Source of the DNA: Aequorivita sp.
Lineage (GTDB): Bacteria > Bacteroidota > Bacteroidia > Flavobacteriales > Flavobacteriaceae
NCBI GenBank assembly: GCA_024637015.1
Contig: JAGXGE010000001.1
Coordinates: 85,255-149,254 of the forward strand
Reading direction: 5' to 3'
Length of the DNA stretch: 64,000 bases
Part shown: positions 6,411 to 33,337 of the stretch, piece by piece
Numbering within the stretch: the first letter of the stretch is position 1
Layout of the letters: the number at the start of each line of letters is the position of its first letter
Position numbers and translations under genes: made by a program
The notes under the pieces: generated by a model
Told to the model about the DNA's origin: nothing
The model's input: the letters and a program-made list of their open reading frames with translations, nothing else
Databases searched by the model: none

Positions 6411-6462
6411 GCCACGAATTAACGAATATTTTTTTATTGGCAAACATTCGAGTATTCTTGGC
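6411..6462. repeat. Gene-less hairpin related to GxxExxY-flanking repeat subtype A (CACGAAT type)
   Basis: GCCACGAATTAACGAATATTT ... AAACATTCGAGTATTCTTGGC; arms are near inverted repeats. Confidence 0.6.
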
Positions 6463-6469
6463 AACAAAT

Positions 6470-7204
6470 ATGGCAAAACTAACGGTAATCATACCCACTT
6501 TCAATGAGGAAGCCTATCTTGAGGATGCGCTGTTTTCCGTTGCATTTGCTGATGAAATAATTGTGATCGATTCCTTCAGTAATGATGCAACACCAGAAAT
6601 AGCCACGAAATACGCCACGAAATTTCTGCAGCGAAAATTCGATAATTTTTCGAACCAAAAAAATTTCGCATTAAAGGAAGCAACCGGAGATTGGGTTTTG
6701 TTTGTAGATGCAGACGAGCGCGTTACCCATTCACTGGAAGCTGAAATACAAAAAGCGATAGAAAATCCAAAACACAGTGGTTACAAAATAAATTTTCCAC
6801 ATTTTTACATGAACCGTTTTCTGTATCATCACAGCGATGATGTCCTTCGGCTAGTGAAACGTGAAAGTGCAAGGTTTTCTGGCTCAGTACACGAAAAATT
6901 GCATTGTGGCGGAAGCTTGGGGAAATTGAAAAATAAAATGCTCCATTTTACCTATAAAGGGTTGGACAGTTATATTTCAAAAAAAGAATCATACGCGTGG
7001 ATTCAAGCGGAGCAACAGTTTGCAAAAGGCAAAAAAACAACTTGGTTCCACCTGTTTTTTAAACCGGCCTATCGTTTTTTCCGTTCTTTCATTTTAAAAG
7101 GCGGTTTCCGTGATGGCGTTCCGGGAATGACCGTGGCGGCCGTAAATGCCTATGGCGTTTTTGAAAGATTTGTCAAGTTGATGTTGCTAAACAAGGGTCT
7201 TTAA
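6470..7204 (+). CDS. GT2 glycosyltransferase (WaaE/KdtX-like)
   Basis: MAKLTVIIPTFNEEAYLEDALFSVAFADEIIVIDSFSNDATPEIA; DADERVT. Confidence 0.85.
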   Translation: MAKLTVIIPTFNEEAYLEDALFSVAFADEIIVIDSFSNDATPEIATKYATKFLQRKFDNFSNQKNFALKEATGDWVLFVDADERVTHSLEAEIQKAIENPKHSGYKINFPHFYMNRFLYHHSDDVLRLVKRESARFSGSVHEKLHCGGSLGKLKNKMLHFTYKGLDSYISKKESYAWIQAEQQFAKGKKTTWFHLFFKPAYRFFRSFILKGGFRDGVPGMTVAAVNAYGVFERFVKLMLLNKGL

Positions 7205-7264
7205 AAAAAATAAAACCCGTAATTCCCAAAATCATTACTTTTACAAAAAGTAATCGCTGTTTTT

Positions 7265-8026
7265 TTGGAAAACCCCGTAAAAATTTCCGCCCTCGCCATC
7301 ACGCTCAACGAAGCGCACAATATTGAAGGCTACATAAAAAGCCTTTGGTTTGCAGATGAAATTGTAATCGTTGATTCATTCAGTAATGATAATACGGTGG
7401 CATTGGCATCAAAGAACGAAAAGGTTACCGTGCATCAACGCGTTTTTGACAATTTTTCTGCACAAAAGAATTTTGCTATTTCAAAAGCAAACAACAGTTG
7501 GGTCACTTTTTTTGATTTGGATGAGGAAGTAACCCCCGCACTCGCAAACGAAATTGTGGAAAGGCTCAACAACCCAGTAGCTATTGCGTATTTCGTGAAA
7601 AGGGATTTTTATTTTATGGGAAAACGCATAAAATACAGTGGTTTGCAGAATGATTTCATTATTCGCTTTTTCAATAAAAACCACTGTAAATACAACGCAA
7701 ATTTGGTGCACGAAACTTTGGAAACAAACGGCAAAACCGAAAATTTAAAGAACCATCTGCCCCATCATACCTATAAATCTTTTGATGATTACACCGCAAA
7801 AATGCACCAATACAGTGCCCTGCAAGCGGAAATGCTTTACAAAAAAGGAAAAAGACCAAATTATTACCATTTTCTGTTCCGCCCATTTTACCGTTTTTGG
7901 AATCAGTTTATTTTCCGTTTGGGCATTTTGGACGGAAAAGAAGGGTTTGTTTTGGCATATGTGAGCGCTTTTTCAGTGTTTAAAAGGTATGTAAACCTCT
8001 GGCTTTTATATAAAAAAATTGATTGA
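7265..8026 (+). CDS. GT2 glycosyltransferase (WaaE/KdtX-like), paralog of preceding gene
   Basis: ISALAITLNEAHNIEGYIKSLWFADEIVIVDSFSNDNTVALA; conserved C-terminal FRP.YRF..QFIFRLGILDG. Confidence 0.85.
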   Translation: MENPVKISALAITLNEAHNIEGYIKSLWFADEIVIVDSFSNDNTVALASKNEKVTVHQRVFDNFSAQKNFAISKANNSWVTFFDLDEEVTPALANEIVERLNNPVAIAYFVKRDFYFMGKRIKYSGLQNDFIIRFFNKNHCKYNANLVHETLETNGKTENLKNHLPHHTYKSFDDYTAKMHQYSALQAEMLYKKGKRPNYYHFLFRPFYRFWNQFIFRLGILDGKEGFVLAYVSAFSVFKRYVNLWLLYKKID

Positions 8027-8030
8027 TTTT

Positions 8031-9167
8031 ATGGTACGGAAACACAAAATAGCCTTTATCTTTTTAGATGAAATACATCATATTTATCACTTTATAAGTA
8101 TTGCCGTTGAGCTTTCAAAAAAGAACCAAGTTCATATTCTTACCTATCCCGCAAAACACGAACTTTTATACAAACTATTAGCAAACCTAAGCGGCGGCAA
8201 CGTAAGGGTGGAAAAGATGCAAACCTATATTTTCAGGGCTTTTACTGACAAATTGAAAAACAGAAAATTGCCTAGAAAGGGTTTTTGGATGAAAAAACAC
8301 CAAAACTACATTCTCAACAATTTTGATGCTGTTGTATTTTCAGATTATTACCATCATTATTTGTTAAAAGCCCGTGGAAATAACACTAAACCAAAATTTA
8401 TTATTTTCCAGCACGGTATGCCTGGAAGAGGATATAGTTATAATAAAGAAATTTTAGATTTTGATTTTCAGTTATTATATAGCAGTTTTCACGTTGAACA
8501 ACTAAAACAAAAAAAATTGTTAGTAAAAGATTGGACTGTTTCTGGATATCCTAAGTTAGATGTCGTAAAAAACCACAATGCCACACCTATTTTTTATAAT
8601 GGAAAAACAACTGTACTCTACAATCCACATTTTGATCCTGAACTTTCATCTTGGTATTTAATGGGACTTGATGTTTTGGAATATTTTTACCATTCAAAAA
8701 AGTACAACCTCATCTTTGCACCACACATCAATCTTTTCAATAAACTGGGGGGTGACGATGCTTCACAAATCCTCCAAAAATATTACAATTCAGAAAGTAT
8801 ACACATAGATCTGGGCAGTGAAAAAAGTGTAGATATGACTTATTTAAACTCTGCAGATATATATCTTGGCGACGTGTCAAGCCAAGTTTTTGAATTTATA
8901 ATAAACCCCAGACCCTGCATTTTCCTAAATCCTCAGGAAATAAAATATAAAGGAAAGATAAGTTATCGATTTTGGCAGACAGGTAAAGTTGTGAATAAAA
9001 TAGAAAAACTGCCGAAAGCTTTAAAAAAAGCTAGGAAAAGCTTTCAGGAAAAATATAGAAAAATTCAGGAATCAATGACTGCCGAAAATTTTTATTTGGA
9101 GGAAGGCTCAACTGCTTCACAACGGGCAGCTACTGCAATTACTGAATATCTAGATAAAAAGTTATAA
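8031..9167 (+). CDS. CDP-glycerol:glycerophosphate glycerophosphotransferase-like (TagB/TagF-type fold)
   Basis: FIIFQHGMPGRG, LYNPHFDPELSSW, FAPHINLFNK, ADIYLGDVSSQVFEFI motifs; ATG 8031 preferred over TTG 8019. Confidence 0.7.
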   Translation: MVRKHKIAFIFLDEIHHIYHFISIAVELSKKNQVHILTYPAKHELLYKLLANLSGGNVRVEKMQTYIFRAFTDKLKNRKLPRKGFWMKKHQNYILNNFDAVVFSDYYHHYLLKARGNNTKPKFIIFQHGMPGRGYSYNKEILDFDFQLLYSSFHVEQLKQKKLLVKDWTVSGYPKLDVVKNHNATPIFYNGKTTVLYNPHFDPELSSWYLMGLDVLEYFYHSKKYNLIFAPHINLFNKLGGDDASQILQKYYNSESIHIDLGSEKSVDMTYLNSADIYLGDVSSQVFEFIINPRPCIFLNPQEIKYKGKISYRFWQTGKVVNKIEKLPKALKKARKSFQEKYRKIQESMTAENFYLEEGSTASQRAATAITEYLDKKL

Positions 9168-9947
9168 ATATTTATCTATGCCGTTTGTACACCATTTGCT
9201 TTTTTTCAAAATTGCTTTTTCCTGCAAAGCATCATTTCTTTTAAAACGGCTTTGGTCTTTTACCTTGTGCCAAATGTGGTAAACAATGCCACGATAACGA
9301 AGTCGTTTTCCTAAAACACCGTTATTCATCATTCGTATAATCAGTTCAGAATCTTCCCTGCCCCACCCTTCAAATTTTTCGTTGTAACCATTTACCGCTA
9401 TTACATCCTTCTTCCAAAACGACACATTACAACCGCGCATTTTTTTTGAAATGGTTTTCTGCGTGGTATAAAGACTGCTTAAAACGGGAATCCAAAGATT
9501 TCTGTTTCTTTTTTTTATTCCTTTTTGAAAATAGCTGAAAACGATTTTTTGGGTTTCAAAAAGTGTGGGCAGAAAATTCTCTTGAATATTTACGCGACTA
9601 CCGTACAAATAGGTATTTGAACGCGCCATTGCCTTGTGGTCCCTCACAAAATTTTTATGCATAATACAATCGCCATCAATTTGGATAATATAAACACCCT
9701 GTGCTGCTGCAATGGCTTTATTCAAAATGATCGATTTGCGGAAACCTTTGTCTTCGTGCCAAAAATGTTTTATTTCAACAGAAATTTTTTTTCTGAAATC
9801 TTCAATCAATTCTTTTGTCACTTCCGTTGAGCCGTCATCCGCAATCAAAACCTCATCAGGCATTTCGGTTTGGTTTTCAGCACTAAGAAGAACCAATTCT
9901 AATGCCTGCGGCCAATTGTAGGTTGAAATCAACAATGAAGTTTTCAT
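9162..9947 (-). CDS. GT2 glycosyltransferase with galactosyltransferase-like C-terminal region
   Basis: TSLLISTYNWPQALELVLLSAENQTEMPDEVLIADDGS; QIDGDCIMHKNFV; GWGREDSELIIRM. Confidence 0.85.
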   Translation of the reverse strand: MKTSLLISTYNWPQALELVLLSAENQTEMPDEVLIADDGSTEVTKELIEDFRKKISVEIKHFWHEDKGFRKSIILNKAIAAAQGVYIIQIDGDCIMHKNFVRDHKAMARSNTYLYGSRVNIQENFLPTLFETQKIVFSYFQKGIKKRNRNLWIPVLSSLYTTQKTISKKMRGCNVSFWKKDVIAVNGYNEKFEGWGREDSELIIRMMNNGVLGKRLRYRGIVYHIWHKVKDQSRFKRNDALQEKAILKKSKWCTNGIDKYL

Positions 9948-10073
9948 TATAAACTAAATTTTCATCAAATATAGCCATTTAATATAATCGGCATTTGCAA
10001 GAAAGTTTAATTGAAATCGCCAAGGCTTTTAAGTGTTTTTTGAAGTACTTTGCACTTTTAAACATGAAGCTGA

Positions 10074-10640
10074 ATGACACAAGAAGACGAAATAAAAAAT
10101 CTGGTAACCATCCTTAAAAGAGGAGGAATTATACTTTATCCAACAGATACCGTTTGGGGAATAGGCTGTGACGCCACAAACTATCAAGCGATTGAAAAAG
10201 TTTTTCAACTGAAGAAGCGCGCCGAAAGTAAGTCGATGATTTGCTTGGTGAGCGATTTTAAAATGTTAAACCAATATATTGAAAATGTTCCCGAAGTAGC
10301 TTATGATATTTTGAAGTATGCTAAAAAACCCACTACAATTATTTATGATCGTCCTCTCCACGTGGCAGAAAACCTGATTGCCGAGGACAATTCGTTGGCC
10401 ATTCGTGTAACCAAAGATGCATTCTGTAAGAAACTAATTCAAAAATTTAGAAAACCTATAGTTTCAACATCTGCAAATTTCAGCAATGCAAATACACCAC
10501 AAAGCTTTGCCGAAATAGACCCTTTAATTTTGGAAGGAGTGGACTATGTTGTAAATTTGCACCAGGAAAAAAAATCAGGAAAACCCTCAGCGATTATCAA
10601 ATTAAAAAATGATGGTTCCGTGAAGGTGATTCGACAATAA
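10074..10640 (+). CDS. L-threonylcarbamoyladenylate synthase (YrdC/Sua5 family)
   Basis: GGIILYPTDTVWGIGCDATN; KPIVSTSANFS. Confidence 0.93.
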   Translation: MTQEDEIKNLVTILKRGGIILYPTDTVWGIGCDATNYQAIEKVFQLKKRAESKSMICLVSDFKMLNQYIENVPEVAYDILKYAKKPTTIIYDRPLHVAENLIAEDNSLAIRVTKDAFCKKLIQKFRKPIVSTSANFSNANTPQSFAEIDPLILEGVDYVVNLHQEKKSGKPSAIIKLKNDGSVKVIRQ

Positions 10641-10648
10641 AAAGGTTC

Positions 10649-11138
10649 ACCACGAATACACGAATGTTTTTATATTTTCTTTGGATACAATGACTAACAT
10701 AATTTATAGACAGGAGAGTTACGACATTGTTGGTTGTCTTTATGAGGTATTTAATTGCTTAGGAAATGGTCTTTCTGAAATTGTATACAAAGACGCTCTA
10801 GAATATGAATTTAATCAAAGAAATATTCCTTACGAAAGAGAAAAAGAATTCTCTATTTCATACAAGGACATTGTTCTAAAACATAAATTTTATGCCGATT
10901 TTGTGGTGTATGATAAGATTATATTAGAAATAAAAACTGTGGAAATACTCACTGATCAACATTTGGGGCAGTGTATAAATTATTTAAAAGTTTCAAAAAA
11001 CAAATTAGCCATTTTGGCAAATTACAAAGGAGAAGGCCTAGAATATAAAAGAGTTGTTCTATAAAAACATACGTTTATTCGTGGTAAAAAAATTACCCAA
11101 AACAGACAAACATAAAAAAACATTCGTGTATTCGTGGT
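10649..11138. repeat. Inverted-repeat unit (subtype A) enclosing a GxxExxY gene
   Basis: Left arm ACCACGAATACACGAATGTTTTT (10649) is the exact reverse complement of the right arm AAAAACATTCGTGTATTCGTGGT ending at 11138; an inner degenerate arm lies near 11065-11085. Confidence 0.85.
10690..11064 (+). CDS. GxxExxY protein (PD-(D/E)XK nuclease superfamily-like)
   Basis: GNGLSEIVYKDAL (GxxExxY), ILEIKTVE; ATG 10690. Confidence 0.85.
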   Translation: MTNIIYRQESYDIVGCLYEVFNCLGNGLSEIVYKDALEYEFNQRNIPYEREKEFSISYKDIVLKHKFYADFVVYDKIILEIKTVEILTDQHLGQCINYLKVSKNKLAILANYKGEGLEYKRVVL

Positions 11139-12558
11139 CAAACAAACCTACATATCAGCTTTAAAAAATCCAATCTTCAGAACTATCTCAAAAGCTGCTT
11201 CCAATTTAAATTTGGAAAGCTATGTAATTGGCGGTTACGTTCGCGATTTTCTGCTGAAACGAGGCGAAGCAAAGGATATAGACATTGTTGCCGTTGGAAG
11301 TGGAATTGATTTGGCTGAAGAAGTTTCAAAACTATTGCCCGGAAAGCCAAAAGTTTCAGTCTTCAAAACCTACGGCACTGCGATGCTTAAAAGCGGTGGA
11401 ATAGAACTCGAATTTGTTGGTGCCCGAAAAGAATCTTATTCCGAGGAAAGCAGAAATCCTGCAGTGGAAAACGGTACTTTGGAAGACGACCAAAACCGAC
11501 GTGATTTTACAATAAACGCTTTGGCCCTTAACTTGAGCGATAAAAATTTTGGAGAGTTGCTCGATCCCTTCAACGGTATTGAAGATCTTCAGAAAAAGAT
11601 AATCCGCACGCCACTCGATCCAAATATTACCTATAGCGACGATCCATTGAGGATGCTTCGCGCCATTCGGTTTGCATCCCAATTGGATTTTATAATTGAA
11701 AAGGATTCGTTGGAGGCAATTACAAGAAATTCCGAACGCATTAAGATCATTTCCAAAGAACGGATTGTAGACGAACTGAACAAAATTTTGCTTTCGGAAA
11801 CACCTTCAAAAGGATTTGCACTTTTACACAAAACCGGCTTGCTTCCTTTTATTTTACCAGAATTGTTAGCACTGCAGGGCATTGACGAAAAAGAAGGTCA
11901 AACTCATAAAGACAATTTTTGGCACACACTCGAAGTTGTTGATAATATTTCGAAAGCTACAGACGATCTTTGGCTACGCTGGGCAGCATTACTCCACGAC
12001 ATAGGAAAAGCACCAACGAAACGATTTGACAAAAAACTGGGCTGGACCTTTCACACTCACGAATTTGTGGGTGCGAAAATGGTTTATAAGCTTTTCAAAA
12101 GATTGAAAATGCCGCTGAACGAAAAGATGAAGTTCGTCCAAAAAATGGTTTTGATGAGCTCCCGCCCCATTGTTTTAGCGAGCGATGTAACTGATAGCGC
12201 AGTTCGACGTTTGATTTTTGATGCAGGCGAAAGTGTGGAGGATCTAATGACCCTTTGCGAAGCTGACATTACAACAAAAAACCCTAAGAAATTCAAAAAA
12301 TACCATCAAAACTTTCAACTTGTACGCGATAAAATTGTAGAAGTGGAAGAACGCGATCAAGTTCGAAACTTTCAGCCGCCAGTAACCGGCGAGGAAATTA
12401 TGGAAACTTTCAATTTAAAACCATCTCGCGAAATTGGTATTATAAAAGACGCCATAAAAGAAGCAATCCTAGAAGGCGAAATTCCCAATGAATACGAAGC
12501 CGCAAAAGAGTTTATGTTGAAGAAAGGAGCTGCCATTGGGCTGAAGTCAATTAAATAG
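11134..12558 (+). CDS. cca: CCA tRNA nucleotidyltransferase / poly(A) polymerase family with HD domain
   Basis: [50 protein letters not shown]. Start codon uncertain: GTG 11134 lies in the repeat arm. Confidence 0.93.
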
Positions 12559-12599
12559 TAAGCAGTAGCAGTGTTCAGTAAAAAATAATAGTAGCAACA

Positions 12600-13613
12600 G
12601 TGAAAGACAATAAAAAAGTAATCTATTGGCTCCTAACGGGATGTTTCCTGATTTTTGTAATGGTAGTTGTGGGTGGAATCACGCGACTTACCCATTCAGG
12701 ACTTTCAATTTCAAGTTATAAACTTATTTCCGGTACGTTGCCGCCTTTAAATGATGCGCAGTGGATTGCTGAATTTGACCATTACAAACAATTCCCAGAA
12801 TACCAAAAACTAAACAATCACTTTAGTTTAGAAGATTTTAAAGATATCTATTTCTGGGAATGGTTTCACCGTTTGTTGGGGAGACTTTTGGGCGTGGTTT
12901 TCATCATTCCCTTTTTCTATTTTCTTCTGAAAAAACAACTCACGAAACCTACCGTCAAAAAAGCTATAATTTTAATGTGCCTGGGTGCATTTCAAGGATT
13001 TCTGGGTTGGTATATGGTGAAAAGTGGTTTGGTGGACCGACCCGATGTGAGCCACTATCGGCTTGCTATGCACTTAACCACGGCATTTATAACTTTCTCT
13101 TATACCTTTTGGGTGGCGATGGATTTAATCTATCCGGTGAAAAAAGAGGTAAATAAACACATCCGAAACATCATTCGCTTTGGAATGGCAATCCTACTCA
13201 TCCAAATTATTTGGGGTGCTTTCGTGGCAGGGCTTGATGCAGGCTGGATTCACAACCATTGGCCATTAATGAACGAAAGCGAATGGATGCACGAAACCGT
13301 TACCACGGAACAAGTTCCAGTTTGGAAAAACTTCGTGGAAGGCAAAAGCGGCGTGCAGTTTGTCCACCGGTATCTGGCTTACGCAGTTGTGGGAATAATT
13401 TTCTTTATTTGGTACAAAACACGAAAATTGCAGCTCACACTTCCGCAGAAAAATGGAATAAATGTGTTGTTGTTTTTGGTTTTAGTGCAGTTCCTTTTGG
13501 GCGTTTTCACGCTTATCCTTCAAGTGCCTGTGGTTTTGGGGGTTTTGCATCAAGTAACCGCATTTTTCCTGCTTGCTGCAATGACTTTTGTTTTACATAG
13601 ATTTAGTAAATAA
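12600..13613 (+). CDS. COX15/CtaA family heme A synthase
   Basis: VVVGGITRLTHSGLSI, WEWFHRLLGRLLG, FVHRYLAYAVVG, LHQVTAFFLLA. Confidence 0.93.
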   Translation: MKDNKKVIYWLLTGCFLIFVMVVVGGITRLTHSGLSISSYKLISGTLPPLNDAQWIAEFDHYKQFPEYQKLNNHFSLEDFKDIYFWEWFHRLLGRLLGVVFIIPFFYFLLKKQLTKPTVKKAIILMCLGAFQGFLGWYMVKSGLVDRPDVSHYRLAMHLTTAFITFSYTFWVAMDLIYPVKKEVNKHIRNIIRFGMAILLIQIIWGAFVAGLDAGWIHNHWPLMNESEWMHETVTTEQVPVWKNFVEGKSGVQFVHRYLAYAVVGIIFFIWYKTRKLQLTLPQKNGINVLLFLVLVQFLLGVFTLILQVPVVLGVLHQVTAFFLLAAMTFVLHRFSK

Positions 13614-13660
13614 CTGTGAAAAAACAAAAATTTCAAGACCTAAAAAGAGGTATAAAATTG

Positions 13661-13668
13661 TAACTTTG
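13661..13668 (+). promoter_or_regulatory. Possible Bacteroidota -7 element (TAnnTTTG)
   Basis: TAACTTTG 20 nt before ATG 13688; no TTG at the ideal -33 spacing. Confidence 0.4.
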
Positions 13669-13687
13669 CACACTAAAATTTTTTAAA

Positions 13688-14200
13688 ATGATTTACCGTT
13701 TCAGAATAATCCTCGACACCCACGAAGACGTTTTCCGCGACATCGAAATAGAAGCTTCGGCCACACTGGAAGATTTTCACAATGCCATTACACAATCCTT
13801 TGGGTTTGATGGGCAGGAAATGGCTTCTTTTTACACAAGCAACGATTTATGGGAAGAAGGCGAGGAAATTTCCCTTTTTGATGTTAGTGATGAACCGGGC
13901 AGTATTCGCATTATGGGAGAAACCAACTTGGAAGATGTTGTTGATCAAGAAAAAACAAGACTACTTTATGTTTACGATTTTCTAAATATGTGGACGTTTA
14001 TGGTGGAACTTGCCGATATAGGTGAGCTTGAGGAGGGAATTATGTACCCAAACTTGATGTTCGCCCACGGTCAAATTCCGGAAGAAGCACCCGAAAAAGA
14101 ATTCATAGCCGAAGAAATTGAGGACGACGATTTCGACGAAGAGTTCGACCTTGACCCTGAAGATTACGATAACCTCGATTTTGACGAAAACTGGAATTGA
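13688..14200 (+). CDS. Plasmid pRiA4b ORF-3-like family protein (PF07929 type)
   Basis: MIYRFRIILDTHEDVFRDIEIEASATLEDFHNAI; acidic C-terminal tail. Confidence 0.75.
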   Translation: MIYRFRIILDTHEDVFRDIEIEASATLEDFHNAITQSFGFDGQEMASFYTSNDLWEEGEEISLFDVSDEPGSIRIMGETNLEDVVDQEKTRLLYVYDFLNMWTFMVELADIGELEEGIMYPNLMFAHGQIPEEAPEKEFIAEEIEDDDFDEEFDLDPEDYDNLDFDENWN

Positions 14201-14235
14201 TTTGGTTGAAAGTTGATCTGCGCAAAAAAGACAAA

Positions 14236-14280
14236 TTCACTTATTCACTTATTCACTTATTCACTTATTCACTTATTCAC
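14236..14280. repeat. 8-bp tandem repeat (TTCACTTA)n, ~5.6 copies
   Basis: TTCACTTA x5 plus TTCAC, 10 bp before ATG 14290. Confidence 0.97.
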
Positions 14281-14289
14281 AATTAAAAA

Positions 14290-15348: not shown

Positions 15349-15382
15349 TGCTGGGTTCGTGTTAGTATCTAATTAGTTTTTT

Positions 15383-15841: not shown

Positions 15842-15913
15842 TTAAAGTTTCAAGGAATATAAATAACTTTCGACTGCATACTGGCACTGCCAACTGCTAT
15901 TTATTAATTACCA

Positions 15914-21340: not shown

Positions 21341-21428
21341 TTTTAACCACAAAGGACACAATGGTTGCACAAAGTTCACTAAGCTCTTACCTATTTTATG
21401 TCTTAGTGGTGTTTTTATGGGCCTGACT
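21341..21428. repeat. Copy 1 of an ~88-bp direct repeat beginning with a subtype-B arm
   Basis: TTTTAACCACAAAGGACACAATGGTTGCACAAAG...GGGCCTGACT; near-identical to 21522-21610. Confidence 0.9.
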
Positions 21429-21493
21429 TTTTGAAATACAAAGCTCATAATAGCTTTATAGAGTTTATTGGGTGCTCTTTGTGTGCTTTGTAA
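21346..21493. repeat. Gene-less subtype-B hairpin-like unit next to GxxExxY copy 2
   Basis: Left arm ACCACAAAGGACACAA; opposing arm GCTCTTTGTGTGCTTTGTAAC. Confidence 0.55.
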
Positions 21494-21521
21494 CTTCTTA
21501 TTGCGCTTTTTACTTATTCCT

Positions 21522-21610
21522 TTTTAACCACAAAGGACACAATGGCTGCACAAAGTGCACTAAGCTCTTACCAATTTTATGCCCTAGAGGTGTTTTTTAT
21601 GGGCCTGACT
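21522..21610. repeat. Copy 2 of the ~88-bp direct repeat
   Basis: TTTTAACCACAAAGGACACAATGGCTGCACAAAG...GGGCCTGACT. Confidence 0.9.
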
Positions 21611-22136
21611 TATGAAAAACAAAGGACACAATGGTTGCACAAAGTGCACCAAGGTTTTCAGTTCACAACTCTCCGTTGATTACTCTCTTAATACCGTGCT
21701 TTAATAGACTTACATTAAAATTTATAAGAAGCCCAAGCTTAAAACCACCGAGCCTCATATAGGTAAGTGTTTGTGCTAAATGAACATCGTTCAATACTTC
21801 CACGCTTTTTATTTCTATAACCACTTTATTTTCAACCAATATATCAATACGATAGCCAATCTCTAATTGTACTTCTTCAAATATGAGGGGCATAGGTTTT
21901 TGTTTCTCAACAATTAAACCTTCTTTTATTAATTTATAGAAAAGACATTCTTGGTAGGCAGACTCCAACAACCCTGGGCCAAGCGTCTTATGGACTTCCA
22001 GAGCACAGCCTATAATCTTATTTGCTATTTGGTTTTCAGTCATTACAATTAAATTTAACAACCTGATTTAAAACAAATTTAAATGTTCACGGAGATTTCT
22101 TTGTGCTCTTTGTGTCTTCTTGGTGTTCTTTGTGGT
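21527..22136. repeat. Inverted-repeat unit (subtype B) enclosing a GxxExxY gene
   Basis: Left ACCACAAAGGACACAA...; right ...TTGTGTCTTCTTGGTGTTCTTTGTGGT, which also encodes the C-terminal tail of PssA. Confidence 0.75.
21663..22043 (-). CDS. GxxExxY protein (PD-(D/E)XK nuclease superfamily-like)
   Basis: MTENQIANKIIGCALEVHKTLGPGLLESAYQE (GxxExxY); VVIEIKSVE. Confidence 0.88.
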   Translation of the reverse strand: MTENQIANKIIGCALEVHKTLGPGLLESAYQECLFYKLIKEGLIVEKQKPMPLIFEEVQLEIGYRIDILVENKVVIEIKSVEVLNDVHLAQTLTYMRLGGFKLGLLINFNVSLLKHGIKRVINGEL

Positions 22137-22869
22137 TAAACAGGGAAAGCAATATATAAAGCAAAATTATAAACGGTATTGCTAAAAACTTCAGCAGTAC
22201 TAAAAGCACCACACACAGTATCAAAAACACATAGCGAACGGCATTGCTTTTAAAATCCCATGTTTTAAATTTTAGAGCAAAAAGTGGGATTTCGGCATTC
22301 AATAGTATGCAACTCAACAAGGTCATTCCTATCAAAAACCATTGATTTAAAATAATACTTTCTGCAAATTCAGAATATTGAAACTGTAAAATCAAAGGCA
22401 AGCTCAAAATCAGAAGTGTGTTTGCTGGCGTTGGAAGACCAATAAAACCAGAAGTCTGGCGTGTATCTACATTAAATTTTGCCAAGCGGTAGGCAGAAGC
22501 TATTACAATCAATAACCCAATTAAAGGCATATAGTTTTTGAATCCAACATTCCATCCATCCAAAGAAAATGTTTCAGTCAACGTCTGCATATGCCCGAAA
22601 TAGGACAAATTCAACATTTGATACATTATGATGCCCGGCGCTACCCCACTAGTAATAACATCTGCCAAGGAATCCAGTTGAAGCCCTACTTCGCTTTGAG
22701 CATTTAGCAACCTCGCAGCAAGGCCATCAAAAAAATCGAAGAAAATTCCTAAAAAAACGAAAAAGGAAGCGGTTATCAAATCGCCTGAAACGGCAAAAAG
22801 TACGGCTACGCAGCCGCAGAGTATGTTCAGGGAGGTTATGATGTTTGGTATTTGTTTTGTTATATTCAT
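22087..22869 (-). CDS. pssA: CDP-diacylglycerol--serine O-phosphatidyltransferase
   Basis: GIFFDFFDGLAARLLNAQSEVGLQLDSLADVITSGVAPG (CDP-alcohol phosphotransferase motif). ATG 22869 chosen over 22938, whose extension is repeat-derived. Confidence 0.9.
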   Translation of the reverse strand: MNITKQIPNIITSLNILCGCVAVLFAVSGDLITASFFVFLGIFFDFFDGLAARLLNAQSEVGLQLDSLADVITSGVAPGIIMYQMLNLSYFGHMQTLTETFSLDGWNVGFKNYMPLIGLLIVIASAYRLAKFNVDTRQTSGFIGLPTPANTLLILSLPLILQFQYSEFAESIILNQWFLIGMTLLSCILLNAEIPLFALKFKTWDFKSNAVRYVFLILCVVLLVLLKFLAIPFIILLYILLSLFNHKEHQEDTKSTKKSP

Positions 22870-25499: not shown

Positions 25500-25500
25500 A

Positions 25501-25655
25501 ACATCCCTCCCAGCCTCTACTTCGACAGGCTCAGCACATCGCCTTCAAAGGGAGGAGCTTGATTTAGATTTACTATACAATTTGTAGTGAAGAAAAAAGG
25601 CCCCTCTTCGAAGCAAGGTGCTGAGCGAAGTTGTAGTAAAGGGATTAAGGGGAGA
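25501..25655. repeat. Palindromic repeat copy A (ACATCCCTCCC family)
   Basis: ACATCCCTCCCAGCCTCTACTTCGACAGGCTCAGCACATCGCCTTCAAAGGGAGG ... degenerate inverted arm CCCCTCTTCGAAGCAAGGTGCTGAGCGAAG...AAGGGGAGAT. Confidence 0.8.
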
Positions 25656-25702
25656 TTTTATTGTGGGTTGAAAATGATGATTGCTGAACTCAATCATGAA
25701 AA

Positions 25703-25766
25703 ACATTCCTCCAGCCTCTACTTCGAAAGGCTCAGCACATCGCCTTCAAAGGGAGGTGTTTGATTT
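25703..25766. repeat. Half copy B of the ACATCCCTCCC family
   Basis: ACATTCCTCCAGCCTCTACTTCGAAAGGCTCAGCACATCGCCTTCAAAGGGAGG. Confidence 0.85.
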
Positions 25767-25791
25767 GGGTTTACTTTAGAAATCGTGACAA

Positions 25792-25921
25792 ACATCCCTC
25801 CCAGCCTCTACTTCGAAAGGCTCAGCACATCGCCTTCAAAGGGAGGGGCTTGATTTGTATTTAATTTATAATTGTAGTCAGAATCAAAAGTCCCCCTTTG
25901 AAGGGGGATTTAGGGGGATGT
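25792..25921. repeat. Palindromic repeat copy C (ACATCCCTCCC family), complete, gene-less
   Basis: ACATCCCTCCC...TTCAAAGGGAGGGG then TCCCCCTTTGAAGGGGGATTTAGGGGGATGT. Confidence 0.9.
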
Positions 25922-25922
25922 T

Positions 25923-26306
25923 CTAAGAGTTTTCTTCAATATAATCCCTAATAACAAGCAAAATATCTTCCATATTATTTAAAACCTCATCATTGGTAAA
26001 CCGCAAAAAATACAGTCCATACTTTTCTATCCTCCCTTGTCTTTCGGCATCTTCCAAAAAATTATGGTCGTGAATATTTCCATCAATTTCTATTACCAGC
26101 CCTATTTCATGACAATAGAAATCGACGATATAATTTAAAATTGGCACTTGTCTATGGAATTCCACTCCCAAAGATTTCTTTCTTATAGTGTTCCCCATTA
26201 ACTTTTCAGAAGGAGTCATATTCTTCCGAAGCTCTTGAGCTATCCTTTTAAGGTGTTTATTGTATGGATTATTTTGTTGGACACAGAATAAAGATATGAA
26301 AAACAT
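25923..26306 (-). CDS. DUF559 domain endonuclease-like protein
   Basis: LRKNMTPSEKLMGNTIRKKSLGVEFHRQVPILNYIVDFYCHEIGLVIEIDGNIHD. ATG 26306 lies inside the repeat arm. Confidence 0.88.
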   Translation of the reverse strand: MFFISLFCVQQNNPYNKHLKRIAQELRKNMTPSEKLMGNTIRKKSLGVEFHRQVPILNYIVDFYCHEIGLVIEIDGNIHDHNFLEDAERQGRIEKYGLYFLRFTNDEVLNNMEDILLVIRDYIEENS

Positions 26307-26370
26307 CCCTCCACAGCCTCTACTTCGACAGGCTCAGCACATCGCCTTCAAAGGGAGGGGTTTGATTTGG
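26303..26370. repeat. Half copy D of the ACATCCCTCCC family, 5' arm of the DUF559 gene
   Basis: ACATCCCTCCACAGCCTCTACTTCGACAGGCTCAGCACATCGCCTTCAAAGGGAGGGG. Confidence 0.88.
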
Positions 26371-26584
26371 ACCTAAATTATAATTGTAGTTAGAAATTGA
26401 AAGTGTCTTTTTTGAAGTAGAATTTTATTTAAATTCTTTTTAGAACTAGGGGTTTACAAGGTTTCTGGATTGGGAATTTAAGTAAGGATAAATTTTGTAG
26501 GAAAAAAGGGTTATATTCCTACATTTTAATGACTTTGCTATGGCTTTGCTATGGCTTATCTATGGAGTATCTATAAATGGCTCG

Positions 26585-27976
26585 TTATTGCCCCCTAAAA
26601 AACACAATAGTACTCAAGGTTTTGATAATGATTGTAATGTCCAGAAAGAGGCTCCGGTGTTTTATATAGTATAAATCATATTGCAGTTTTTCGAGGGAAT
26701 CCTCTTCACTGGAACCGTATTTGGCGTTTACCTGTGCCCAACCTGTTACGCCTGGTTTAACAAGGTGTCTCACTTCATAAAAAGGTATTTTTTCTATAAG
26801 ACCTTCCACAAATTCAGGACGTTCTGGACGTGGACCAATCACGCTCATTTCACCTTTTATAACGTTGATGAATTGTGGGATTTCATCAAAACGGGACTTT
26901 CTTAAAAAACGACCAAACTTTGTAACACGGGTGTCTTTGGCTATTGCAAATTGGGCGCCATGTTTTTCTGCGTTTATAACCATACTCCTCAATTTGTAAA
27001 TCTTAAAATGTTTCCCGTTTTTCCCTACCCGTGTCTGACTATAGAAAAAAGGACCTCTGTTTCCAATCATATTCCCTGTTATAAGAAAAGGTAGCAAGAT
27101 AAGTCCAAAAAGAAGCCCGATGATTGACAAAAGCAAATCCAGTATTCTATTGAAAAAGAGGTAAAGTTTGTTTTGGTTGCTTCGGCTAAACGGGAAATAA
27201 CGATAAAAATCCTTTTCCACGTGCTGCACGGGAATACGGTGCGTCAGCTCTTCATATACTTGGGTATATTCGCGGATGGGAATTCCGTTTTCAAGCAACT
27301 TTATTAACTTGTTATTGAGTTCAACAGTCATCCCCTCAGAAAGTGGCGTACCCACTACTATTTCAGAAATAGTCATTTCATCAGTCAACATTGCAATATC
27401 CTCGATAGCAATGGAATCTATTTCAAGATTATTAACGATTGTTCCGTCATACGGAGCTGTATTAAAATATCCTATAACCCTGTAGTTCGGATCTGACTTT
27501 TGGAGAGAGGCTACAATTGCATCTACATCTTGAGCGTGGGCAATCAGAATCACTCTTTTATAAAAACGCGGCGCGGAAATAAGAATGATATACGCATACC
27601 GCCAAGCCAACATAGCAACGTTGATTGCCAAAAAGAAATAGACTATCTGCAAACGATTGGACGGCAGCATGGGAGTATAAAATGGGGTGAGCAGATAGAA
27701 AAGCACTGTTACGGAAGATGTAATGATCACATTTTTAACAACCACATCAAACTTACTTGCCTTTTGAAGATTATAAAGCTCAAAAATAGTTGCAAACACA
27801 GTAAGATAAGTAGCCAAAACAATTGACCACACCCAGTGTTCAGAATTAATTTTAAAATAATCAAAATTAAAAACAAGACTCACTACATATAGCAACAACA
27901 AAACGCAGACAATATCCAGAACACGAAGTAGAATCTTTCGTTCTGATATGTCAAAATGGATGTTGTTTTTGGACAT
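26585..27976 (-). CDS. Exopolysaccharide polyprenyl glycosylphosphotransferase (WbaP/WcaJ-like)
   Basis: C-terminal KIYKLRSM...ARV-like KDTRVTKFGRFLRKSRFDEIPQFINVIKGEMSVIGPRPERPEF. Confidence 0.92.
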   Translation of the reverse strand: MSKNNIHFDISERKILLRVLDIVCVLLLLYVVSLVFNFDYFKINSEHWVWSIVLATYLTVFATIFELYNLQKASKFDVVVKNVIITSSVTVLFYLLTPFYTPMLPSNRLQIVYFFLAINVAMLAWRYAYIILISAPRFYKRVILIAHAQDVDAIVASLQKSDPNYRVIGYFNTAPYDGTIVNNLEIDSIAIEDIAMLTDEMTISEIVVGTPLSEGMTVELNNKLIKLLENGIPIREYTQVYEELTHRIPVQHVEKDFYRYFPFSRSNQNKLYLFFNRILDLLLSIIGLLFGLILLPFLITGNMIGNRGPFFYSQTRVGKNGKHFKIYKLRSMVINAEKHGAQFAIAKDTRVTKFGRFLRKSRFDEIPQFINVIKGEMSVIGPRPERPEFVEGLIEKIPFYEVRHLVKPGVTGWAQVNAKYGSSEEDSLEKLQYDLYYIKHRSLFLDITIIIKTLSTIVFFRGQ

Positions 27977-27989
27977 GGTTAGTTGTTTG

Positions 27990-28017
27990 TTGATGGTTGA
28001 TGGTTGATGGTTGATGG
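27990..28017. repeat. Heptamer tandem repeat (TTGATGG)x4
   Basis: Four perfect copies just 5' of the glycosylphosphotransferase start. Confidence 0.97.
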
Positions 28018-28090
28018 TTTTATTGGGTTACTGCCTCTGCTATTGAATATTGTTTATTATCCATTATTAATTCATCATTGCTAATTGCTT

Positions 28091-28132
28091 CCTATTGCCT
28101 AACACCTATTTCCTAATGCCTATTGCCTATTG
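28091..28132. repeat. Degenerate heptamer tandem repeat (CCTATTG)x6
   Basis: CCTATTG CCTAACA CCTATTT CCTAATG CCTATTG CCTATTG in exact 7-bp phase. Confidence 0.9.
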
Positions 28133-28163
28133 CGACAACCGAAATATCAAATTTACAGAAATT

Positions 28164-29186
28164 TCAAGCTTTCAAAAGTTTAATCCAGTTATGTTTTACA
28201 ATTTCCCAATCAAATTTTTCCATTTTTGTTCGGGCCTTTATTGTCAATTCTTGGGCCTTCAATGGATCTTCACACAGGTTTTCAATAGCTTTCACAAAGG
28301 CTTCTGGATTGTTTGGAGGCACTAAAATTCCGTCAATATCATTTTCTATCAGAAAAGGTAATCCGCCCACGTTGGTTGAAATTACTGGCAGTCCAACAGC
28401 CATCGCTTCCATTACGCTTACAGGCATATTGTCAAAATTAGTGGTATTAATAAAAATATCAAACTCCTTGGAAAGGGTTATCCATGCTTCTTTTTGCAAC
28501 ATCCCAGTGAAACTTACGGGCAAGTTTAATTCCCCGGCCATTTTTTTACAGCGCTGCAAAGAACCATCTTTGTCGGGACCGACCATACAAAGGGAAACAT
28601 CAATTCCGTTTTGTTTTAGTATTTCTACGATTTCCAACGCCAACAAGGGATTGTATATTTCTGAAAAAGAACGTACCCACAATAATTTTGGAGTTATTGA
28701 TTCCCTACTTTGGAATGGGTAGTTTTTTATTTCAATAGCATTAGGAATATAAGTTATATTGTGAATACCCGCATCCTTAAATTGCTGCATCATATACTTT
28801 GAAGGCGCCACATTTGTGAGTGCCTTTCCAAAAAGTTCATTGCTCAAACCTTTACTGTTTTTCAATCTACTAGGCAGATTACCTCCATGTAATATTGGAA
28901 TGTAAGGTAACTTGAAAAGCCTGCATAACATAGCAACAATCACAGCATAGTAATAATTTTGGGTACTATAAGTGTCAATTAAAACCAGACTAACACGGTT
29001 CCTGTTCTTAATGGTAGTAAAGACCATATCCAGCATCCGAAATAGTTTATTTTTTTTTGACGATGCCGATATAACTGTATACCCTTCCGCTTGCAGTTTC
29101 ACGGACAAGGAGTCTATAGCCGCGGGAGGTTTCCCGTGAATGGCCAATTTATTTCCTATGTAAAGCAGGTTTCTTCTTGGGTGCAT
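28164..29186 (-). CDS. GT4 family glycosyltransferase
   Basis: NTTNFDNMPVSVMEAMAVGLPVISTNVGGLPFLIEN. Confidence 0.9.
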   Translation of the reverse strand: MHPRRNLLYIGNKLAIHGKPPAAIDSLSVKLQAEGYTVISASSKKNKLFRMLDMVFTTIKNRNRVSLVLIDTYSTQNYYYAVIVAMLCRLFKLPYIPILHGGNLPSRLKNSKGLSNELFGKALTNVAPSKYMMQQFKDAGIHNITYIPNAIEIKNYPFQSRESITPKLLWVRSFSEIYNPLLALEIVEILKQNGIDVSLCMVGPDKDGSLQRCKKMAGELNLPVSFTGMLQKEAWITLSKEFDIFINTTNFDNMPVSVMEAMAVGLPVISTNVGGLPFLIENDIDGILVPPNNPEAFVKAIENLCEDPLKAQELTIKARTKMEKFDWEIVKHNWIKLLKA

Positions 29187-30438
29187 AATCTAAATTCAAT
29201 AAACAAAGAGCATATATAAAAGCTGGAGCGGCTATCCGCATGGAAGTAGTAATAATTGTAAGGCCCCAAAAAATTATAAACGGATAAAAATAGATGTTTT
29301 TCCTTCCGTTTATTTTTGTAATTAACGGGGCGAATAGAAGTACTAATAAAGCAAGAATACCAAACAAACCATGCTCTGACAGCATCCTAGAAATTTCGTT
29401 ATGTGATGCAGATGTAACTCCCATTTCCTCCATAAATTGAAATTTACCCTGACCCACACCTATACCGAATACTGGGTTCTCTTTAAAAGCATCAATCTCC
29501 ATTGACAATAAATCAATACGTCCAGTGGTAACATCGTCCTTTTCCCTACCAAGAGCGTCCTCATTTGCATAGCGATTACCTATTAAACCTCCAGTTTGAA
29601 TAATGGTATAGGTCCATACTAACAGGGTAACCCCAATAATAGCTAGTACTTTTACAGAGATTTTTGCTTTAGTCTTTAAACCAGTACTTAAGTATATTAT
29701 AAAAAGAAAAGCCAAGCACATGAAAACCGAAACCAAAACTCCGCCTCGAGAGAAAGTAAGAAGTGCCCGGTATGCCATAACAATCATCAGAAACATCATA
29801 GTCCAATGTACAAGTATATTTTTATAAGGAATCAGTAAACGGGAAAACAAAATAAAGAAACCTAACCCTAATATGGTTGCTGCCTGATTGGGACCATAAC
29901 CACCGGACATAGCTGAATTTGAAGCGGTTCCAGTTATTACATCCTGAATGTTGGGAGTATACAGCGTAATGTAAACAACCATACTTATTATCGGATAAAC
30001 AATATAATCAAGAACTTTGAGGAAATCCTGCAAATGAATAGTCCGCCCAAAACAAAATATGGCGGCAAAAGTTAAACACAAGGGGCCGCTTAAATTAAAA
30101 AGTACTGTATTTCTGAAATTGGCATCAAAGGCGATCACATCCATTGAAATAAAAACTGCTGGTAAGAGCAGTAAAATGTAGATTATATACGGAAATGCAT
30201 TTTTTTTGAAACCCAGATAAAGCATACCCAATAACATAAAGAACATCACGGCATATTTGCCTGTTTCATAAAAAATAAAGGCTTTTGTCATACGCAGAAA
30301 AACCTCCGCCCCAGTAATATAAGCCGACGCAAGAAGTACATATTGCGCTTTATTTTTTTTTCTAATTATTTGGTAAACAAAATACCCCATAACCGCAAGC
30401 ATATAAATCAACATCAAAGAACGGCTGACGTAGGCCAA
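29149..30438 (-). CDS. O-antigen ligase/polymerase (Wzy_C family) membrane protein
   Basis: Multi-TM; RIDLLSMEIDAFKENPVFGIGVGQGKF...SASHNEISRMLSEHGLFG. Confidence 0.85.
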   Translation of the reverse strand: MAYVSRSLMLIYMLAVMGYFVYQIIRKKNKAQYVLLASAYITGAEVFLRMTKAFIFYETGKYAVMFFMLLGMLYLGFKKNAFPYIIYILLLLPAVFISMDVIAFDANFRNTVLFNLSGPLCLTFAAIFCFGRTIHLQDFLKVLDYIVYPIISMVVYITLYTPNIQDVITGTASNSAMSGGYGPNQAATILGLGFFILFSRLLIPYKNILVHWTMMFLMIVMAYRALLTFSRGGVLVSVFMCLAFLFIIYLSTGLKTKAKISVKVLAIIGVTLLVWTYTIIQTGGLIGNRYANEDALGREKDDVTTGRIDLLSMEIDAFKENPVFGIGVGQGKFQFMEEMGVTSASHNEISRMLSEHGLFGILALLVLLFAPLITKINGRKNIYFYPFIIFWGLTIITTSMRIAAPAFIYALCLLNLDYAPKKKPALHRK

Positions 30439-30533
30439 AAAACCAATCAGAATATGAAAGATTATAGCCCTAAGGGGAGAAATATTTTGAAATATTTTCG
30501 AAGTGATAGTTTTTGGGATTTTGCGTTAATTAT

Positions 30534-31652
30534 TTAAGGTTTCATTATCTCCTCTTGTATTTTTTGCCTGTAAATTGCAAACGTAAATTTTGAAGCCACA
30601 AGATAGCAATCAGATGCCATTTTTGTTAGTTCATCCGTGTTTTTTGAAATAGCTTCTTGCAGCACTTCTCGCATATGTTGTGCATTCATTGAATTTAAAA
30701 GAAAACCATTTTTAGCATTAACATACTGTCCTATACTTGAAATGTCAGAAACTATTGGAATACAGCCATAATTCATCGCCTCTGCTATTACTTTTGGAAA
30801 ACCTTCGGAATCACTGGGCAACAAAATATAGTGTGATTTTTTATAAATCTCAAAAACTTCTTGTCGTTCCAAAAAGCCATGAAACACAGCAGGCAGCCCA
30901 AAATTGTCGCACTGTTTTTGATATTGGTCCATCTTTTCCCCATTCCCAATAAAATGAATGGTTTTTATATTTTCCAAAGAATTTAAATTTCCAAAAGCAT
31001 CAATAATACGTTGTACCCCCTTTGCATCTTCCAACCGTCCCACAAAACAAAACGTATAAGGGAGGGCAAAAGATTTCTGTTGCGTTATCCCCAAGCCTTC
31101 TTCCCGTTCTTCTATCGTAAGGCACGGATTTTCAAAAGTCAAGCAGTGTTTGGGCTGTTTTGGCCACCTACCATTAATGGTCACTATTCGTTTTTGGTGT
31201 TTCACCATCCAGCGCTGCAAGGCATAACCCAAGGGAGGATTGTCTTGGTTCCAATTCCCTGCGTATTTGTACCAGCCTTTTTTATTGCTGAACAATGTGA
31301 GATAGGGTATCAAAAACACGCCAATACCAGTTGGTGTTCGCAATTGGAAGACATCAACACGTTTTAGTGTTTTCTTGACCGTAGCAATTATTTTGGGAAT
31401 ACTGAATATAACTTTCAATTTTGCAACTATCCCCTTTCCGCCCACAGGTTTTAAAGGAATAAACTTTATTTTGGAAGAAGTATAAGGCAAAGAACTTGGT
31501 GGTGGTGTGCCAAGATGTAAAAATGCTATATGGTATATCTCTTCAAAATCTTGTGCCATGTGGTTTAGCTCGCTTATAGTAGGTCCCCAACCAACGATTG
31601 TTCCATCGGGCTGTTTGTAGTGTTCGGTATGAGATATGATGGCGAGTTTCAA
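30534..31652 (-). CDS. GT4 family glycosyltransferase
   Basis: FVGRLEDAKGVQRIIDAF; SDSEGFPKVIAEAMNYGCIPIVSD. Confidence 0.9.
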   Translation of the reverse strand: MKLAIISHTEHYKQPDGTIVGWGPTISELNHMAQDFEEIYHIAFLHLGTPPPSSLPYTSSKIKFIPLKPVGGKGIVAKLKVIFSIPKIIATVKKTLKRVDVFQLRTPTGIGVFLIPYLTLFSNKKGWYKYAGNWNQDNPPLGYALQRWMVKHQKRIVTINGRWPKQPKHCLTFENPCLTIEEREEGLGITQQKSFALPYTFCFVGRLEDAKGVQRIIDAFGNLNSLENIKTIHFIGNGEKMDQYQKQCDNFGLPAVFHGFLERQEVFEIYKKSHYILLPSDSEGFPKVIAEAMNYGCIPIVSDISSIGQYVNAKNGFLLNSMNAQHMREVLQEAISKNTDELTKMASDCYLVASKFTFAIYRQKIQEEIMKP

Positions 31653-31672
31653 GATAAACGTTCTATTTTTTT

Positions 31673-32121
31673 ACCACAGAGGCACAGAGCGCACAGAGGT
31701 TTAGATGTAACCATTTATTATTCTTTTTATTCCGTCAACAACTTTTACAGTATTAAAGTTTATTAAAAGTCCAAGTTTAAGATCTTTAAGTTTTAGATAA
31801 GTTAAAATCTGTGCAGTATGTATGGGTGCTAAAGCATCAATTGATTTTATTTCAATAATAACTTTATCCTCCACTATCATATCTATTCTATACCCTGCAT
31901 TTAGCTTTATATCTTTATAAACTACTGGCAACGGAATCTGTTGTTTGACATCTAAACCAAATAATCTTAATTCATGTGCCAAACAGACCTCATAAGTACT
32001 TTCCAAAAGTCCAGGCCCTAACTGTTTATGAACCTCGATGCAAGCACCTATAATTTTTGAAGATAATTCATTTTCTGTCATAATCATATTCTTCTCTCTG
32101 TGTCCTTTGTGCCTTTGTGGT
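31673..32121. repeat. Inverted-repeat unit (subtype B) enclosing a GxxExxY gene
   Basis: Left ACCACAGAGGCACAGAGCGCACAGAGG; right CTCTCTGTGTCCTTTGTGCCTTTGTGGT. Confidence 0.85.
31701..32081 (-). CDS. GxxExxY protein (PD-(D/E)XK nuclease superfamily-like)
   Basis: MTENELSSKIIGACIEVHKQLGPGLLESTYE (GxxExxY); VIIEIKSID; in-frame upstream ATG at 32087. Confidence 0.9.
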   Translation of the reverse strand: MTENELSSKIIGACIEVHKQLGPGLLESTYEVCLAHELRLFGLDVKQQIPLPVVYKDIKLNAGYRIDMIVEDKVIIEIKSIDALAPIHTAQILTYLKLKDLKLGLLINFNTVKVVDGIKRIINGYI

Positions 32122-33238
32122 TAACATTTTTTTTCTCCTCCATTTCTTCTCCTTTCAAAACATTCAAATATAACTTTATTATTTGCTCCCATGTGAAACC
32201 CTTCGACCAGCTCTTTGCTACTTGAGAATAAGACTCATAATTATTTAATATTTCTTCCAAGGCCTTGGCGAACTGTTCTGGGTCTTTATTGTTAATCAAT
32301 CTACCGGAAACTCCATCTTTTATTGCATCTTCTATTCCGCAACCCAAAGCCCCAATTGCTGGAATTCCCAAGGCGTTGGCTTCCAAAATAGCAATCCCAA
32401 AACCCTCAACATCTCCACCTTGCGTGGTTTCACTTAGCATCACAAAAACATCGGCTTGTTGTAGGAGTTCTATTTTCCTATTTTCGGAAACTTTTCCTAA
32501 AAAGACAATCGCTTCTTCTACGTCTAAATTTAATGCTAATTTTTCCAAACGCTCTTTTTCTGTAGGGATACCAACAATATGATATTTTAAATCAGGATAG
32601 TGCTTTAAAAGCAACGGTAATGCTTTAATAACATTGTGTTGGCCCTTTCGCTGAGTGATATTTCCTACTGTAATTAAAACCGGGGCCGTTCTATTTTTAA
32701 TCTTGAGAACAGAAAGTGCCTCCATTTCAAAACCATTGGGGACAACCGTTATATTTTTCAAAGAAAGATGTGAGAGCAATGATTTTGTAAAATTACTTAC
32801 GGCAATGATTTTATCAAAACGTTTTAGGGACCAATCCGTAAGTTTTCGTTGTAGCTTATTTGGAAGCCGAATTTCACTTCCGTGAATGATTGCAACAAAC
32901 TCTTTTTTAAAGAATAAAGTAAGGAAAGCGCCCAACCAAAGGGAAAACTTGCCAGAACAAATTACAAGATCACTTTTTCGAGCTAATGAGAATGCAGTGC
33001 TTATACGATTTAAATAACTTAAAAATATAATTTTCTTCCTTGGAATTCTAATGACTTCAAAACTTAGGCTTTTATCAAATTCCCTTTCCTCCTTCCCTTT
33101 TCCTGAACGAGTATCGCACACCAATTGTACCTTAAAACCGTTAGCCTGCAATCCTTTCGCCAAATTATAGGCATGATTGCCAATACCGCCGGGTTGGGGA
33201 GGGAATTCGGAGGTAAGTATGAGGATTTTGGTCATCAA
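32084..33238 (-). CDS. GT4 family glycosyltransferase with repeat-encoded C-terminal tail
   Basis: FPPQPGGIGNHAYNLAKGL; GNITQRKGQHNVIKALP; EGFGIAILEANALGIPAIG; tail NHKGTKDTERRI. Confidence 0.9.
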   Translation of the reverse strand: MMTKILILTSEFPPQPGGIGNHAYNLAKGLQANGFKVQLVCDTRSGKGKEEREFDKSLSFEVIRIPRKKIIFLSYLNRISTAFSLARKSDLVICSGKFSLWLGAFLTLFFKKEFVAIIHGSEIRLPNKLQRKLTDWSLKRFDKIIAVSNFTKSLLSHLSLKNITVVPNGFEMEALSVLKIKNRTAPVLITVGNITQRKGQHNVIKALPLLLKHYPDLKYHIVGIPTEKERLEKLALNLDVEEAIVFLGKVSENRKIELLQQADVFVMLSETTQGGDVEGFGIAILEANALGIPAIGALGCGIEDAIKDGVSGRLINNKDPEQFAKALEEILNNYESYSQVAKSWSKGFTWEQIIKLYLNVLKGEEMEEKKNVNHKGTKDTERRI

Positions 33239-33272
33239 ATTTAGGAAATAGATAGCATCATTTTATTTTTTC

Positions 33273-33337
33273 ACCACAGAGACACAGAGGGCACGGAGTG
33301 CATAATCTTTTCTTTGTGTTCTCTGTGCCTCCGTGGT
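33273..33337. repeat. Gene-less subtype-B hairpin (65 bp)
   Basis: ACCACAGAGACACAGAGGGCACGGAG...TCTTTGTGTTCTCTGTGCCTCCGTGGT. Confidence 0.9.

Follow-up and report, generated by a model that had tools for sequence, protein, structure and literature searches.

Three genes for small proteins of the GxxExxY family, each bracketed by inverted arms, lie inside 21 kb of the window, i.e. the whole 64 000-nucleotide stretch of the genome of this marine Aequorivita sp. that was analysed, and the view that gene and arms behave as one mobile unit is well supported. The units share a common anatomy with arms that differ between protein subtypes, they are present in some congeners and absent from others, they have been acquired at the same locus together with short flanking tracts, the gene is under purifying selection and one copy has decayed to a deletion derivative. 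We favour, at a probability of roughly 0.55, the reading that the unit is a selfish element made up of a nuclease gene and subtype-specific arms, which would spread by homing-like allelic conversion and give rise to gene-less hairpins by internal deletion. Together, the gene and its repeats have the look of selfish DNA of a kind not described before.

The three genes (A, B and C; Table 1) are the only intact GxxExxY (TIGR04256/PF13366) copies in the 3.2 Mb genome. They score 125, 146 and 155 bits, respectively, against the TIGR04256 profile, for which the curated cut-off is 35, and 112–150 against PF13366 (cut-off 22). The preliminary description of this DNA had placed all three ORFs between inverted arms, and the coordinates were confirmed: the outermost arms of unit A are 91% complementary and those of unit B 78%, while the arms of unit C (about 31671–31699 and 32094–32123) have the arm motif in common. 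GxxExxY is the sole ORF between the arms; no DDE transposase is encoded between the inverted repeats, and the arms have no linked transposase of any kind. The arms also supply coding signals to neighbouring genes: the GTG start (11134) of a downstream tRNA-nucleotidyltransferase-like gene falls inside the outer right arm of unit A, and the ORFs for the CDP-alcohol phosphatidyltransferase and the glycosyltransferase are lengthened at their 3' ends by arms B (22087–22144) and C (32084–32123), respectively.

Table 1. Positions within the window of the GxxExxY genes, their arms and the gene-less hairpins.
Feature	Position	Strand	Remarks
Degenerate A-type hairpin	6408–6465		DNA fold
Left arm, unit A	10646–10678	+	CCACGAAT-A-CACGAAT, gap 1
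GxxExxY gene A	10690–11064	+	PD-(D/E)XK, TIGR04256 profile match
Inner right arm, unit A	11060–11088	-	Inverted repeat
Outer right arm, unit A	11109–11141	-	Inverted repeat and motif
Gene-less B-type hairpin	21342–21494		Left arm of four iterons, gaps 2,4,2
Unit B arm, downstream side of gene B	21519–21564	+	Inverted repeat
GxxExxY gene B	21663–22043	-	Profile match
Unit B arm, upstream side of gene B	22099–22144	-	Overlaps 3' end of CDP-alcohol phosphatidyltransferase ORF
Unit C arm, downstream side of gene C	31671–31699	+	Three iterons, gaps 1,2
GxxExxY gene C	31701–32081	-	Profile match, structure model
Unit C arm, upstream side of gene C	32094–32123	-	Overlaps 3' end of glycosyltransferase ORF
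Gene-less C-type hairpin	33270–33340		Three iterons per arm, gaps 1,2 on left

The residues E27, D67, E77xK79 and Q91xxxY95 are invariant, and E27, D67, E77, K79, Q91 and Y95 are predicted to form an intact RecB/Cas4-like PD-(D/E)XK active site. The AlphaFold model of the gene C entry (pLDDT 94.9) found its best solved-structure match in the Cas4 protein SSO0001 (4ic1; probability 1.00, E 0.01), followed by the lambda and LHK exonucleases; because the E value is 0.01 at a probability of 1.00, we read this match at the level of the fold only, and a sequence search against solved structures gave no match. The core fold and the E...D...ExK...QxxxY residues are those of the Cas4/RecB/lambda-exonuclease-like branch of the PD-(D/E)XK nucleases. 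The protein differs from Cas4 in its length of 126 residues and in being bracketed by iterons, and no cysteine was found among the invariant or nearly invariant columns, so that the Fe-S cluster held in Cas4 by four conserved cysteines is absent. A role as a defence system was rejected, the PADLOC families giving only weak Cas4 similarity. Values of dN/dS for intact orthologues of about 0.05–0.12 (four loci, one of them a single pair) point to strong purifying selection on the gene.

In the direction of the gene, the arms consist of two to four successive iterons of about 7 nt, with the form CRCNRAK. The shared architecture first proposed for the arms, ACCAC(A/G)(A/G)A..CAC(A/G)(A/G)A, is real as a motif, but the arms are better described as iteron arrays, and every gene has a word and a spacing of its own. 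Shuffling of the window gave an expectation of 0.00 for the motif CCACRRAKN{1,2}CACRRAK, of which the window contains six copies; the whole genome has 22, and only one match to the reversed control. Within the genus, subtype A arms carry CACGAAT, always with a gap of 1, subtype B arms mostly CACAAAG with a gap of 2 (or 2,4,2), and subtype C arms CACAGAG, mostly with gaps of 1,2. Such subtype-specific words and spacings make the protein–DNA specificity open to direct test.

The association extends through the family. Over 68 non-redundant loci, the density of inward iterons falls from 27/kb within 50 bp outside the gene to about 0.8/kb at 600–1000 bp; the iterons are strongly oriented, with 3.8/kb on the opposite strand, and their autocorrelation has one peak at 8–11 nt and a second near 20. 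Of the 68 loci, 44 had two or more inward iterons on both sides of the gene, compared with 0 of 67 distal controls and 8 of 68 when the orientation was swapped. Similarity of arm k-mers follows protein identity (Mantel r 0.50; maximum of 1000 permutations, 0.11); the corresponding r for distal flanks is 0.22, falling to 0.13, a residual signal that probably reflects relatedness. Loci that fail the two-sided test often have another tandem mirror-image unit, such as the TTGATT/AAGATT type beside the GNGFQEVIY subfamily. Three loci (L170, L198 and L164) represent GxxExxY subfamilies with different tandem units (TTGATT/AAGATT, CGAATTTAT and CACGGATTT), which suggests that further cognate arm codes exist.

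Three hairpins without a gene had also been described in the window. That at 33270–33340 is clear (DNA fold z −4.1, with 0 of 200 shuffles as good) and that at 21345–21494 moderate (z −2.7), but the one at 6408–6465 can be upheld only as a degenerate form (z −2.3, 5 of 200 shuffles as good). By inspection, the gene-less hairpins of this genome carry the same words and gaps as the gene arms, and there are therefore cognate hairpins for each gene; a search of the window against Rfam returned no structured-RNA match. On contig 39 of this genome, the locus L025 retains full C-type arms and both ends of the gene, with the start MRENEI in one frame and the end FGLLINFNSVKVVDGIKRVINGYL in another, while the middle of the gene is gone. 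It is an internally deleted gene-bearing copy, intermediate between the gene-bearing unit and the hairpin. The idea that the 33.3 kb hairpin spread locally from the gene 1.2 kb away found no support, because two congeners, G220 and G209, have this hairpin without the gene.

Arms are enriched where the gene is present, in keeping with the pairing originally proposed: in tallies read by hand from tables for 200 Flavobacteriaceae genomes, at least four arm motifs were found in 16 of the 50 gene-bearing genomes and in 4 of the 150 gene-less ones (Fisher p 6.5e-8, a value that ignores phylogeny). The exceptions include G220 (87 motifs; L412, L413), with no detectable GxxExxY gene, and G081 (13 motifs), which has none either. 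The 87 motifs of G220 indicate that hairpins persist without a resident gene; they may be what remains of an element since lost, or else hairpins that were moved in trans.

The preliminary description had compared the arrangement to REPIN/RAYT or MITE/transposase pairs, and the part of this comparison that stands is that of a unit with gene-less derivatives. In the GxxExxY units, as in REPIN/RAYT (TnpA-REP; PMC3116915, PMC8266576), a small gene on the chromosome is accompanied by cognate palindromes and by inverted palindromic pairs that lack the gene. The units differ in that the enzyme is of the PD-(D/E)XK and not the Y1/HUH class, the arms are built of iterons in arrays, fewer copies occur and there are several genes per genome. 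RAYT-like transposition is not supported, given the Cas4/RecB-like protein and the arm-rich genomes without Y1. It would still be conceivable for a RAYT/IS200-type Y1 transposase to mobilise the palindromes in trans with GxxExxY as cargo, as the REPIN-like anatomy and the Y1 genes of some congeners would allow, but we regard this as extremely improbable, since the arms co-vary with GxxExxY subtype and the arm-rich genomes G024 (46 motifs), G209 (30), G213 (23) and G200 (23) gave no Y1 match. On the distribution of Y1 genes, a RAYT was rejected as mobiliser.

The state of loci A, B and C was compared across as many as 28 congeners, occupied sites being counted by reading of the flanks. All three were polymorphic, with occupied, empty, hairpin-only and decayed states, so that the empty and occupied alleles expected of a mobile unit were indeed present at each. 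Locus A is occupied in 14 of 28 congeners, locus B in about 10 of 26 and locus C in 7 of 17. The alleles at locus A are about 85–93% or 58–67% identical to protein A, each class with its own arm ends; without the unit, the two neighbouring genes abut in six congeners and the remainder hold arm-free or hairpin remnants. Where loci B and C are not occupied in a congener, they are either cleanly empty or contain different hairpins. The locus C gaps of L125, L117 and L124 contain further tandem repeats that change fast (AGACGTGAG, GAATAAA and CAACCGA types). On a tree with many poorly resolved deeper branches, the pattern requires 12 changes at locus A, four at B and five at C, and in two supported sister pairs, G000/G218 and G209/G210, one member is occupied and the other is not. 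An optional gene between conserved neighbours, present or absent among relatives, is also what characterizes free-standing homing endonucleases. For the most part the copies are positionally conserved, with 16 loci for 70 copies, from which we conclude that movement of the unit is slow; gene C-type copies occupy at least four separate loci.

Where the unit has moved recently, the sequence exchanged is centred on it. At several loci the unit is 95–99% identical between species whose flanking genes are 72–85% identical. At locus C, gene and arms are 97–99% identical among G210, G216 and G219 (97.9% for G210/G216 and 97.1% for G210/G219), and the flanking glycosyltransferase genes 73–76% (G210 against G216 and G219) or 81–87%. 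In G216/G219 the tract reaches about 160 bp past the gene on its upstream side and about 290 bp on its downstream side. The G200/G206 unit at the same locus is 96.6% identical, against 79–81% for the flanks, with the fall near the arms. In G209, the sister of G210, locus C is empty, and because the G210 and G216 elements have diverged by about 2%, less than G209 and G210 themselves (median gene identity 84%), the G210 copy was gained after the G209/G210 split.

In identity, gene C exceeds its pair median by 15.6 points and gene B by 11.0, compared with at most 10.5 for the non-GxxExxY genes of the region; gene A showed no such excess in the same-region comparison. Among about 18 windows per pair at eight loci, the one with the element ranked first in identity in 35 of 131 pairs, where about seven would be expected if windows were alike, the pairs being non-independent. 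Co-conversion tracts of the kind left by free-standing homing endonucleases are evident at locus C; the signal is weaker at loci 0, 3, 4 and 5 and was not seen for gene A. Recent transfers of the unit thus resemble conversion at one and the same allelic site.

True transposition, in which the nuclease, alone or with a host factor, would act as a transposase on the arms and the hairpins would be its MITEs, is distinctly unlikely. TnsA-type PD-(D/E)XK enzymes do act at transposon ends, and the dispersal of gene C-type copies, the hairpins with cognate arms and the internally deleted L025 all fit such a process; the strand-transfer domain is, however, absent, most copies are positionally conserved and the recent events took place at the same locus. 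The sister-species comparison recovered neither a clean target site nor a target-site duplication, the intergenic flanks being too highly diverged. Inverted ends and internally deleted, non-autonomous copies are features shared with the MITEs of DDE insertion sequences, but the units have no DDE transposase and, with flanks this diverged, no target-site duplication was seen.

It seems more probable that the unit spreads as a homing-like selfish element. The process would probably involve binding of the nuclease to its cognate iterons, and the making or processing of a DNA break at the allelic site in a recipient genome, upon which recombinational repair from the donor copy would install the unit with a short co-converted flank; transfer to a new locus would be a rarer event. 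Internal deletion would produce arm-only, MITE-like hairpins, which may persist as non-autonomous relics. Binding of the arms by the protein, and conversion driven by its cleavage, are what we infer from the genomic pattern.

The strongest rival is fragile-site repair with the gene as a passive passenger: the palindromes would be fragile, for example through SbcCD cutting or stalled replication, and general recombination would repair them from incoming DNA, carrying the gene along. The hairpins fold strongly, turn over fast and persist without the gene (G220), and the fold is exonuclease-like, Cas4/lambda-exonuclease-like folds usually being exonucleases and not site-specific endonucleases. 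We nevertheless consider this explanation unlikely, because palindrome breakage should favour loss, yet G210 gained a unit where its sister G209 is empty, and because the iteron word and spacing follow the protein subtype and the gene is under strong purifying selection.

Purifying selection could equally be expected of a host gene, i.e. a cellular repair nuclease with the iterons as operators or terminators, and the near-absence of the gene from plasmids and phages would agree with this. GxxExxY was found on 7 of 72 556 plasmids, in 0 of 50 697 phage records and at six IMG/VR loci, and conventional plasmid or phage cargo was rejected on the grounds of this scarcity. A host role is, however, highly unlikely, for the gene is optional at every locus studied and often decayed, there are several paralogues per genome, and mirror-oriented arms stand on both sides and recur in gene-less copies.

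Free-standing (intronless) homing endonucleases, e.g. phage T4 Seg/Mob, have been described (PMC2988022), and a PD-(D/E)XK class of homing endonucleases has been listed (PMC6083498). The GxxExxY units resemble the free-standing type in having an optional nuclease gene between conserved genes and in allelic spread with co-conversion of short flanks; they differ in their location on a bacterial chromosome, their inverted iteron arrays and gene-less hairpins, their Cas4/RecB-like fold and a cleavage that is presumed. By analogy, the units most likely combine an intronless-homing-like working (PMC2988022, PMC6083498) with a REPIN-like anatomy (PMC3116915), and their enzyme class, inverted iterons and hairpins fit neither description. 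In the open-access literature, where three papers name the family, we found no description tying GxxExxY/PF13366 to repeats, no relevant paper containing the repeat strings and no function described for TIGR04256 GxxExxY or PF13366 PDDEXK_3.

A second small PD-(D/E)XK-type gene in the window, DUF559 (PF04480; 25923–26306), lies between different inverted arms (CCTTCAAAGGGAGG) in the region 25866–26383, and gene-less copies of these arms occur nearby at 25542–25846 and 40594–40736. Several small DUF559 ORFs in congeners adjoin CCCTTNNNAAGGG or CCCTTTAGGG palindromes, and DUF559 may therefore represent a parallel nuclease–palindrome pairing.

Beyond the genus, two or more inward iterons flanked the gene on each side at 50 of 75 GxxExxY loci from GTDB genomes, a sample that spans Bacteroidota, Cyanobacteria, Planctomycetes, Chloroflexi, SAR324, Desulfobacteraceae, Acidobacteria, Treponema, Dojkabacteria and others; neither of its two archaeal loci (L230 and L249) had that many on both sides. 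Tentatively, and at slightly less than even odds, GxxExxY and its arms may constitute a class of mobile element that is widespread in bacteria, and perhaps archaea, and has so far gone undescribed. The Cas4/RecB-like nuclease would recognise its own inverted iterons, and break repair driven by it would copy the unit and the gene-less hairpins without a transposase, integrase or reverse transcriptase. If so, a large family of small nucleases of unassigned role would gain a function, and the common intergenic palindromes of the CACRRAG type in Bacteroidota, Cyanobacteria, Planctomycetes and other groups would gain an origin. It would also represent a new mobile-element strategy, in which a nuclease and its cognate repeats spread by repair and not by transposition.
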